DNA of 64,000 bases from Engelhardtia mirabilis (lineage in GTDB: Bacteria; Planctomycetota; UBA1135; GCA-002686595). Below, in pieces: positions 34,752 to 58,557 of this stretch. Both the position numbers and the translations under genes were made by a program. The notes beneath the pieces were generated by a model that saw only the letters and a list, made by a program, of their open reading frames with translations, searched no databases and was not told the DNA's origin. Each line of letters begins with the position of its first letter. The first letter of the stretch is position 1. The DNA lies in NCBI GenBank assembly GCA_007751255.1, contig CP036296.1, forward strand, positions 3,968,001 through 4,032,000, given 5' to 3'.

Positions 34752-35171
34752 CTACTCCGCGGCGCCAGCAGCCGCCTTGGCCGCCTTGCGAGCGGCGGCG
34801 CGCTCGTCCCGACGGGCCGATTTGGCCGCGGCGAAGCTGGCCTTGCGCTGGGCGCGGTTCGCGCGCTTCTTCGTGTCCTTGGCGCGTCCGGGGCGCTCGC
34901 GCTTGGGCTTCTCGACCTTGCCCTCGTAGACGTTCTCCCGCACGAACAGGTTGTTGACCGTGTGGCTGGGCTTGGCGCCGCGATCGAGCCAGAAGCGGGC
35001 GCGTTCGACGTCGAGTCGAAGTCGCAGGTCCTCGACCGGCGAGATCGGGTCGTAGATGCCGAGGGTCTCGAGGGTGCGGCCGTCGCGCGGGTTGCGGGAA
35101 TCAGCGACGGAGATGCGGTAGCAGGGGGCGTTCTTACGCCCGGTGCGCTTCATGCGGATGACGACGGCCAT
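34752..35171 (-). CDS. rpsP: 30S ribosomal protein S16 with basic C-terminal extension
   Basis: S16 is an early-binding small-subunit protein. The first 85 residues match the family (VVIRMKRTGRKNAPCYRISVAD, then TLGIYDP). The protein is 139 aa, about 50 more than typical; the extra part is an Ala/Lys/Arg-rich tail, a trend also seen in the H1-like neighbour and in the Ffh tail. The ATG at 35169-35171 is the natural start. In many bacteria rpsP sits next to ffh, rimM and trmD. Here ffh is about 3 kb upstream on the same strand, and neither rimM nor trmD follows. Confidence 0.95.
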   Translation of the reverse strand: MAVVIRMKRTGRKNAPCYRISVADSRNPRDGRTLETLGIYDPISPVEDLRLRLDVERARFWLDRGAKPSHTVNNLFVRENVYEGKVEKPKRERPGRAKDTKKRANRAQRKASFAAAKSARRDERAAARKAAKAAAGAAE

Positions 35172-36165
35172 GGTTCGAGTCGGTCGATGTGGTGAGAGTC
35201 GAGAGAACCCACCGGCGGCAGGCCGGCGGACGGTCCCGGCGCACGCGGCGCGGGGACTCACGTTGTCCGCCGCAGGTCCGGCGCCCCCTGGAGACTGAAC
35301 AGAAGACTGATCAGCCGTAGGGGCCGGTTGCGGCGGTCGTCTCGGGCGGACCCGAGGCTTCAGACGACGCGAGCGCGCCGACTGGAGGGCGAGGAGCATA
35401 GCGGCCCGGCCCCCCGGGAGCCAGCCTGGGGGAGCGTCAGGGCGCCCTCGCCCCGACCGAGTCCGGCCATCGGCTCACCTGGGCGCCGCGGCCTGGGCGC
35501 CGCCGGCCCCTCGGGTGGAGGCCCGACCGGCGGGATCGGGGCCAGCGGGCCAGGAGGCTGCGTCACAGGATGCGGATTCGCCGGTGCTCGACCCTGGCTC
35601 GAGCGCAAGGCGCATCAACTTCGCCGTAGCCTCGGCGCCACGGGGTAGTCGGCGCAGGGCCGCGATCGAGTTCGGGGCGAGTGGCGGCGGGTTCGCACTC
35701 TGTGGCGCAGGCTCCTGGTCCGCCGCCCCGAATCCGGCCCGGTTGGGTCACCGGAGGGGCCTGGGATCCCAGCGCCGGGGGTCGGCGCGAGATCCCGGCC
35801 GAGCAGCGAGTCCGGCGGACTTGCTGCGGCGCGAGATCCGGGGGGCAGCCGACCCCGTCGAGTCGTGGATCGTGGCGGGTCCCGGATCCGTGCGGGTCCC
35901 GGATCCGTGCGGGTCCCGGATCCGTGCGGGTCCCGGATCGGGAGACGACCCCCTCGCGGCGACGTCAGGGCTCGGCCGGCGCGCCCTCGCGCCTCCCCGC
36001 GCCCCCCGCCGGCCCGGCCCGGCCCGGCCGCGATGGCGCTCCTGGCGGACTCCGGGCCGCCCGCGACGGAGGGGCGAGGGACACCGGTCCCCCACTGCCT
36101 GGACTGCAGGCGTGGCGGGCGCGAGGGACCTCAGCTCGACGTCGGCGGTGTGGCGCCTTCGCCTG
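35172..36165. other. 994-bp non-coding stretch with minisatellite
   Basis: No frame here has a convincing start, codon pattern or motif; the open frames are rich in Arg, Pro and Ser and change reading across the repeat. It contains the 17-bp tandem repeat at 35875-35940 and a short GGCCC run near 36009-36030. The leader of rpsP occupies its left end. Confidence 0.5.
35875..35940. repeat. 17-bp minisatellite, about four copies
   Basis: The unit GCGGGTCCCGGATCCGT is repeated at 35875, 35892, 35909 and 35926, the last copy incomplete. Each unit contains the palindrome CGGATCCG. As 17 is not a multiple of 3 and all frames read through, it is not a coding repeat. Copies are nearly identical, so expansion is recent. 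Confidence 0.9.
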
Positions 36166-56679: not shown

Positions 56680-56953
56680 TGCCCCCACTCTGGTGGGATC
56701 AGGGGAGGAAGCGCACCGGTGCGGGCGGACTGGCGAAGACCGCCTCCGGGATCGCACCGCTGATGGCGATCCACGCGAACCAGAGATTGGTACCGATCAA
56801 CGCTGGCCCCACCGCGGGCACGTCGATCGAAGGGGCCGCCGAAGCGCCCTCGGCCGAGAGCGTGCCGAGGGTACCGCCGAAGGGTGCCTGACCCGCGCCG
56901 ATCAGCATGGCCGTGGTCAGCGCGTCGGGAACCAGTCCCAGCACGACGCCGTT

Positions 56954-56964
56954 GGGGGGGGGGG
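56954..56964. repeat. G11 tract causing a frameshift in the disrupted gene
   Basis: An uninterrupted run of eleven G lies on the plus strand (C on the coding strand). After ATC the remaining ten C put the downstream frame out by one; nine would keep it in frame with the C-terminal domain ending at 56699. Confidence 0.85.
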
Positions 56965-57005
56965 ATACCGGGCATCCCTAAGCCGACCGAGCCGAGCACC
57001 AGGTA

Positions 57006-57166
57006 GTGTCCTGGATCAGAATTTCGGCGTCACTTCCCGGGCTCCGATCGCCGCTGGCGTCGCCAGCGCCTCCTCCGAGTATCGCAGCGGATACGCGTCG
57101 TCGGCGCGCCTAGCCAGCATCGATCGGACCTCCGGGCAGTGACGCCGAATTTCCGATCCAGGACAG
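57006..57166. mobile_element. 161-bp MITE with 28-bp inverted repeats and TA target duplication
   Basis: The ends at 57006-57033 and 57139-57166 are inverted repeats matching at 25 of 28 positions and sharing the core TGTCCTGGATC. They are flanked by TA at 57004-57005 and 57167-57168. Removing the element with one TA joins GCCACCTA to CCTGGTG, restoring A-T-Y-L-V in the host gene. TA duplication and short, non-coding, inverted-repeat structure fit a Tc1/mariner (IS630)-type MITE moved by a transposase encoded elsewhere. The interior is open on the minus strand through to 57016 but shows no transposase motif. No second copy was noticed in the window. Confidence 0.88.
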
Positions 57167-58557
57167 TAGGTGGCGCCAGCCAGGCTCGGCGGTCCGTCTA
57201 GGGCCAGGTCGAGCGTTCCGGGCAGGGCCGCGACGGAGAGTTGATCGGGGTGTGGCATGAGCGCCGAACACAGGTTCCCGCCCAGGTCGACCACCTCCAC
57301 GAAACCGGCGTCGGGGCCAATCAGGAAGCCGGCCTGACGTGCGCCAACCAGGACTTGGGAGAAGGCGGCGTCGAACTCGATCGCCTGTCCGAAGTCGTCG
57401 AAGGCCTCGGGTGCGACGCTCTCGAAGACCAGAGTCGGCTGGACCGGTGCCGTGGGCTGGTCGAAGCGCGCGACGGATCCTCCTCCGAGATTCAGGCCGA
57501 CCATGGTCGTGTCGCCGTCGATGGCGAATCCGGTCTTGGTCCCGGCACCGGTGATCCCGAATGTCGCGAGGGGTACCAGGCCGACCGGGGTCACGTCGAA
57601 GGGCCATAGCCTGACCCGCGGGAAGGCCGGGTGGAGCGGGTCGGTGGCGGCCGAGAGGGCGACCAGCCGTGGGCCGTCGAGTTCGAGCTGCAGCCCGAAG
57701 TCGCCCCCCGCGAACACCTGCGTGGCGTACGCGAGCTGCCAGGCTCCGGTGCCTGTGGCGTCCTGGAAGGCCTGGATCTGGCCGTCGTCGCTGGAAACGA
57801 ACAGGGTCTGACCGTCGAAGACCAGGTCGCCGGCAGTGGGTTGAGCGGTGATCGGGATCGTGGCCCCCTCGACCCAAAGGCCGCCGGCGCGCTGGAAGGC
57901 AACCACCCGGGCACCGCTGGCCGCGGCCGGGGAGCCTCGCACGCGCAAGAACAGCCGGTCGCCGACCACCTCGATACCGTCGAACTGGGCCGACGCGCCG
58001 GGAGCCTCGGCGACGGTGATCGGCGGCTCCGACTCGACCTGGTCGACCGACAACAACTCGAAGGGATAGACGGTGTCCCCGAGCCCGGTGCCGATCACCG
58101 CGAGGCCGCCCGAGAGCCCTCCTTTGCGGCCGAAGAGACCTTCGAAGGGCAGGTCGGCGGGCGGTTCGATGCGGATCGCGCTGACCCAACGCCCAGAGGC
58201 GCCGCGCTGGAACAAGTAGGCGGCACCATCGCGCCCGAAAGTCGCGCCAGTGACGGCGTCGAAGTTCTCGGCCCCGGGCGCCGTGACGAGGAGCAGGTTG
58301 TCGGAACGCTCGATGGCCCAGCCGAAGCCGTCACCGGGAGCACCGTCCGGCGCGCCCAAGCGCTGGAAGGAACAGACCTGGGCCCGAGCCGCGTCGGCCA
58401 ACAGCGCCGCACCAAAGAGCCCGGCGGTGATAGGTAAGGGCGAGATGCGGGACCATTGGAGCGGCGAACTCATGCTGATCATGGGTTGGCAATGTCCAAG
58501 CGGTTCGGGTGCTGCCCGATCCATGTTCGTCGCAACCTCGGCCCGCCACGGGCTCGG

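Follow-up and report, generated by a model that had tools for sequence, protein, structure and literature searches.

How a 159-bp hairpin came to lie within a minus-strand gene of Engelhardtia mirabilis, which transposase could have moved it there, and whether its interior had any part in its success are the questions raised by this locus. The window, ie the whole stretch of DNA that was analysed, comprises 64,000 nucleotides (G000:C1:3968001-4032000). The genome is 6.95 Mb in size and is assembled as two contigs.

The element and its host gene

Between two copies of GTAG lie 159 bp, TGTCC...GGACA, which form an almost complete palindrome. In a repeat search the inverted arms reached a length of 59 nt, with 78% identity, and RNA folding of 161 nt gave -105.9 and -117.5 kcal/mol for the two strands. 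There is no transposase gene in the 159-bp element, and the ORFs that overlie it enter from outside and run through. The features of the locus are as follows, in window coordinates.

57007..57165, plus strand: MITE of 159 bp, TGTCCTGGATC...GATCCAGGACA, defined by sequence, repeats and genome copies
57003..57006, no strand: left copy of the target repeat, GTAG
57166..57169, no strand: right copy of the target repeat, GTAG
57007..57034, plus strand: left terminal inverted repeat, with an IS630-type tip
57138..57165, minus strand: right terminal inverted repeat
57052..57122, plus strand: conserved hairpin core (model R2, 75.9 bits, E 3.7e-16)
57110..57113, no strand: internal CTAG, a site occupied in sister copies by other MITEs and by one IS630 copy
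57170..58524, minus strand: 5' part of the host gene with one FG-GAP_2 match, from the ORF list and the profile match
56699..57002, minus strand: 3' part of the host gene past the insertion, from the sequence and the ORF list
56954..56964, no strand: G11 tract, with an offset of the likely C-terminal frame after it

The first-pass annotation had described a MITE with 28-bp termini agreeing at 25 of 28 positions, TA at both flanks and a length of 161 bp. Recomputation gave exactly 25 of 28, and the interior from TA to TA is 161 bp.

The product of the minus-strand host gene gives one FG-GAP_2 match, of 26.8 bits against a cut-off of 23. It had been proposed that excision of the element restores this gene in frame. 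By eye, the A-T-Y-L-V frame does run across the junction, but the G11 tract lies about 40 bp further on, and even without the element the gene lacks a continuous reading frame over its full length. The plausible C-terminal frame is the ORF at 56699-56944, which in this assembly is offset after the tract, so that the host gene is broken, or misread, there too. The homopolymer may itself be an assembly error or a frame-variable tract. The host protein was matched in 20 of the 81 genomes of the family, own included, at E<=1e-3; apart from the gene itself, the matches listed are all partial and at most 45% identical, and the 81 yielded no orthologue similar enough to serve for an empty-site comparison.

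Copies and target sites

The central 21-mer of the element occurs 73 times in the genome with up to three mismatches (35 forward, 38 reverse), 58 times exactly, and the reversed pattern gave no match. The hairpin is therefore not a chance structure, and the element is confirmed as real. The surroundings of all 73 copies were inspected. Both ends are present in 67, at a length of 157-159 bp. Of these, 58 measure 159 bp; they depart from their consensus by a median of 3 differences (mean 1.8%), the window copy by 2. The MITE family is young, and it has spread to about 73 places recently. Scattered copies had been suggested as a check of mobility, and these 73 near-identical ones, at unrelated sites with CTAG-type flanking repeats, bear out the MITE reading. 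MITEs are also found nested in one another at the internal CTAG.

The flanks read CTAG/CTAG in 46 of the 67 complete copies. Because CTAG is its own complement, such flanks cannot separate a 2-bp from a 4-bp duplication. Three copies at deviant targets have a matched tetranucleotide (CTAC/CTAC, CTAA/CTAA and the GTAG/GTAG of the window copy), which favours 4 bp; three others are mismatched at an outer base (TTAG/CTAG, CTAG/CTAA and GTAG/CTAA) and fit a duplication of TA only, or later mutation. One copy is flanked by CCAC/CTAC, and in 14 an inner T or A alone is changed, on one side in 13 and on both sides in one. TA is present on at least one side in 66 of the 67, the CAAG/CCAG copy having it on neither. 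On balance the duplicated sequence would seem to be NTAN (4 bp) and not TA alone, with three copies in disagreement. The TA duplication read originally at this locus thus stands as far as the TA flanks go, but the GTAG repeat of 4 bp, with an interior of 159 bp, is the better reading.

Outside the elements, CTAG was counted at 365 per Mb over 350,647 bases, compared with 2,726 expected from composition, and the 184 CTAGs within the 73 copies amount to about 7% of the estimated genome total. The flanking CTAG changes at roughly three times the rate of the element itself, mostly to CCAG or CTGG, as fits a strong avoidance of CTAG.

The source of the transposase

A PF13358 profile search of the genome gave seven near-identical IS630 genes and one weak match, and no further IS630-type gene was found by this profile. 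The genome's protein matches NCBIfam NF033545 (IS630 family transposase) with E 1.2e-79. The resident IS630 is about 1.2 kb long and reads CTAG-TGGGGCGAGTC...GACTCACCCCA-CTAG, with ends that are related to, but different from, those of the MITE. A transposase with matching ends had been named as a further check; related IS630 ends were found, but none of exactly the TGTCCTGGATC type among the PF13358 matches. Locus L046 was considered as a further IS630 and set aside, its match to DDE_3 being weak; by its look the ORF is presumably an IS3-type transposase.

The tips of the MITE resemble IS630/Tc1-mariner ends; an IS630 of a relative ends with CTAG-TGTCCTGAGTCAGAAGTTCG. The first 23 bases of the MITE tip were compared with IS630 ends of this and other genomes. 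The closest was the single readable end in the relative G027 (17/23), followed by the two ends in G068 (16/23 and 15/23) and the resident ends (13/23); the presumed ends in G001 (11/23) and in G065 and G033 (10/23 each) are within background. A set of 254 CTAG-adjacent 23-mers taken outside complete elements included 19 with at least 13 matches to the tip; after removal of 19 as family tips (at least 9 of the first 11 bases), none of the remaining 235 has more than 11. This likeness above the controls would place the MITE in this class of IS630, with the exact partner either missing or cross-acting.

The 4-bp repeat could also be the mark of another DDE family, since IS5-type elements duplicate YTAR. 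The MITE would then have been moved by an IS5-like transposase with a YTAR/CTAG duplication, and the likeness of its tip to IS630 would reflect a shared target context. The matched repeats of the three deviant copies suit such an origin, as does the failure to find a same-ended IS630 in the own genome, but the likeness extends to base 20 (..TCAGAAATTCG), above all 235 CTAG-adjacent controls, and TGTCCTG begins one readable IS630 end each in G027 and G001. A preference of IS630 for TA within CTAG is also reported, by Tenzen and Ohtsubo in 1991. We regard the IS5-like origin as quite unlikely and retain IS630.

Six of the seven resident IS630 copies adjoin a MITE, at a MITE CTAG, with different outer flanks at the seven loci. 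Under even insertion into all CTAGs, the probability of six such copies would be 6e-7. In part the adjacency follows from the rarity of CTAG; the rest could be attraction of the transposase to related ends. Both IS630 copies of G068 (2/2) likewise adjoin MITEs whose ends are related, one copy having a MITE on either side, and the MITEs concerned contain a diverged core (R2 E 0.0003 and 0.0019).

Among 299 genomes the exact 14-base tip was found in the own genome and in G023 (3), G061 (1), G103 (2) and G168 (1), and the reversed control gave two matches. A separate search for the tip with up to one mismatch gave 176 matches, 100 of them listed. An autonomous TGTCCTGGATC element was found neither by the PF13358 profile nor behind the 14 solo tips inspected in the own genome (CTAGTGTCCTGGATC; L053-L056, L059-L067 and L043), which pass into different sequence some 11-15 bases on. 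At half of them (7 of 14) an ORF ends at the TAG of the tip (crude calls), and in L066 a decayed core lies behind it. These solo tips may be scars of single-ended joining, or old deletions. For ISY100, single-ended joining is reported as the commonest product in vitro (PMC2170065). Some solo tips are joined to another dispersed repeat, around GGATCCGCGCCCAGCACGCCCAA or variants of it (L040, L043, L058, L062, L067). A coreless palindrome made up of two MITE left arms was also seen (1666234-1666346; L058:4238-4344), which points to fold-back copying. Locus L075, in G103, contains tandem 15-base units, TTAGTGTCCTGGATC, which may be coding and would read as IQDTK repeats on the opposite strand.

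A core shared by elements with different ends

When four other genomes were searched with the DNA of the element, G023 was matched at the loop of the MITE and not at its ends (best E 2.6e-7), and the G023 cores sit inside palindromes with TGGGGTGACGC ends. The loop pattern was present in 11 of 161 genomes, all among the 81 of the family (own included) and none among 80 others, with a control of zero. With model R1, and at most 13 candidates scored per genome, the core was detected at E <= 1e-3 in 49 of 392 Planctomycetota genomes, in 45 of 267 genera and under 33 family labels. A scan of a species collection yielded at least 69 stretches with the core pattern; among the matches listed, 68 are from MAGs labelled Planctomycetota or, in the case of Bpl_4, 'bacterium', and one is from Rhodococcus rhodnii. 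The latter (L248) has no inverted arms and was taken as a chance match.

Among the matches listed, 24 lie at contig edges and were excluded from the comparison of flanks. Of 46 distinct cores with sufficient flank, 44 fall in five end classes, the exceptions being L214 and the Rhodococcus match.

Class A: IS630-like, CTAG-TGnnnYG
Class B: CTAG-CAGCCCGTGGTGAAACTCAC
Class C: TAA-GGGCCCGTCCG
Class D: TAA-GAGCACGTCC
Class E: GAGCCTGTGAAG, one copy

Different classes occur in the same genome: N075bin59 has classes A and C, plus a single copy in which one end is of type B, Bpl_4 has A and C, and S-RSF-IL-06 has D and E. A direct repeat of TAA is found on both sides in four of the seven class C/D copies (L187, L198, L217 and L237, and not L200, L206 or L253), a duplication different from that of class A. 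By eye, each end class tends toward its own core variant across genomes, so any exchanges of ends are not recent.

In the own genome R2 found 75 cores, 72 of them within the MITE family. The remaining three are found at 5166313 (with GGGGGATCAGCGGGC ends, by eye), at 5745242 (CTAG-GGA..) and at 5532280, where the copy is decayed. The window also holds an older element of another end type.

35552..35716, minus strand: older core-bearing palindrome with ends AGGAGCCTGCGCCACAG (core 35597-35668, R2 E 0.0016)

This palindrome aligns with its relative at G000:C1:5745242 with a score of 128. It lies upstream of a minus-strand ORF, 34752-35399, which by eye encodes ribosomal protein S16.

A phage origin of the core was considered and rejected on scans of viral contigs. 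The strict pattern occurred in no viral contig and the medium pattern in one (L300), a true core; the loose pattern gave at least 120 viral stretches, and among the 80 listed none held a core by R2. BLAST against plasmids and phages returned 31 and 13 records, weak and partial among the matches listed, and five plasmid matches scored with R2 reached E 0.043 at best.

Structure of the core and its interpretation

The 70-nt core is an imperfect hairpin in which two asymmetric internal loops, GCGTT/GCCTT and TCCTC/CGTCG, are nearly constant and three stems vary. Alignment A1 contained 35 of 37 non-redundant cores, L192 and L211 being excluded for an incomplete left arm. RNAalifold of these 35 rows returned a structure near-identical to that drawn by hand, and the named pairs are 92.8% paired. 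Two-sided changes numbered 79, compared with 30.7 in shuffles and at most 16 in slid structures; A1 was gathered by a pattern fixing 21 columns, and the nine pairs with such changes sit in the free columns. Alignment A2 (42 rows, at least 16 from the family, fitted to the model) contained 142 two-sided changes, compared with 42.6 when shuffled and at most 23 in slid structures. In a palindrome, covariation of this kind is also possible by homogenisation of the arms, without function. Inverted arms continue past the core in 28 of 41 core matches (40 of the 42 A2 rows, L187 and L278 being excluded, together with L300) at p<0.01 relative to arms of different loci; of the remaining 13, eight lie at p 0.01-0.055 and five are without arms even at p<0.1.

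The near-constant loops, the covariation and the company of different ends are observed, and they suggest, tentatively, that the core is an independent hairpin module under selection for its fold. Framed by the ends of a resident DDE transposon it would become a successful miniature element, its fold being read by a common factor. On the same tentative footing, one module would have been re-clothed across the phylum with IS630-type, TAA-duplicating and other ends.

A functionless core can be argued from the same elements. It may be a remnant of the inside of a single ancestral MITE, maintained through descent and copying, whose ends were swapped when other elements inserted at CTAG. Nested copies at the internal CTAG, IS630 inserted at MITE CTAGs and the palindrome of two left arms demonstrate rearrangements of this sort, and the end classes keep their own core variants. 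Asymmetric loops that stay near-constant while the stems covary, under 33 family labels of one phylum, are less readily explained in this way, and a single coreless palindrome was noticed among the loci inspected. We consider descent without function a real possibility, short of the probable.

Selection by the host on an RNA, either a 3'-UTR hairpin or a small RNA merely spread by transposon ends, was also weighed. Its support comes from the gene context of the 73 copies, counted with crude gene calls and nested copies included: 24 are flanked by convergent and 6 by divergent genes (p 0.0014), and where a single gene reads in, it does so from the 5' side of the core in 26 of 39 cases (26 vs 13, p 0.053). 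The copies thus appear to prefer convergent gene ends, and the bias of orientation is a hint. The mismatches, on the other hand, carry no RNA signature, with no excess of GU pairs on either strand (GT 3 vs AC 9 in A1, 6 vs 7 in A2), and in Rfam 15 no match on the core reached a family's gathering score (4 + 15 loci, E up to 1). Matches below the cut-off, on or beside cores, were MIR2084 in L272 (E 0.0017, 33 of 100 bits), Dictyostelium_SRP in L279 (E 0.77) and AaHKsRNA41 in L290 (E 0.2). An RNA element is, in our judgement, unlikely.

Relation to described systems

IS630-type MITEs are already known, and RUP of Streptococcus pneumoniae is the nearest described system that we met. By its description, RUP is 107 bp long, is present in 108 copies, has terminal repeats like those of the resident IS630 and is thought to ride on IS630-Spn1 (PMC2229807). 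Our MITE resembles it in being a short palindrome with IS630-like terminal repeats, at TA-containing targets and near IS elements. Unlike RUP as described there, it targets CTAG with an apparent 4-bp repeat, and its interior is a motif common to elements of other end types. The likeness to IS630/ISY100 (PMC2170065) lies in the TA-centred target and the presence here of a DDE transposase of the same family; the differences are that the MITE carries no transposase, that the tips of the resident IS630 differ, and that the repeat seems to span 4 bp instead of the TA alone.

REP/BIME sequences and CGTC-tagged palindromes, reported from several phyla (PMC3733652), are likewise short multicopy hairpins, often downstream of genes and sometimes inside longer palindromes. 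On one reading the core is a REP or REPIN, mobilised by a RAYT (tyrosine) transposase, which came to insert within palindromes; REP dimers within palindromes are described in A. variabilis and H. neapolitanus (PMC3733652). Set against the features given in that source, however, the core lacks a GTAG tag in A1 and A2, and its CGTC stands 3' of the apical stem and not before an AT-starting stem with a CCA tail. The rules for tag, stem and tail thus differ, the hairpin here occupies the constant middle of elements whose duplications are of the DDE type, and those duplications are specific to the ends. We find a REP origin very improbable. Among the papers listed by a literature search, none deals with a core common to elements with different ends.

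Proposed mechanism

We consider it probable that the element is a non-autonomous MITE of the IS630/Tc1-mariner type, moved in trans; more tentatively, its core may be a selected structural module. The copies, their sites, the repeats and the likeness to IS630 ends are the observed basis. An IS630-family DDE transposase, supplied in trans, would cut the MITE at the CTAG boundary; the excised MITE would then be pasted into other CTAG-like sites, presumably by cut-and-paste, leaving the target tetranucleotide on both sides. The folded core would be recognised by some factor, and the palindrome might then succeed whatever transposase family reads its ends.

The common view of bacterial MITEs is that of transposons reduced by internal deletion, with an interior of no consequence. 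A constant structured centre in elements with different ends would imply that the success of a passenger depends in part on its interior, and a 70-nt sequence with two fixed loops provides a concrete object for testing this. A shared core could explain why the MITEs of one phylum, derived from different transposon families, have a common size and shape.
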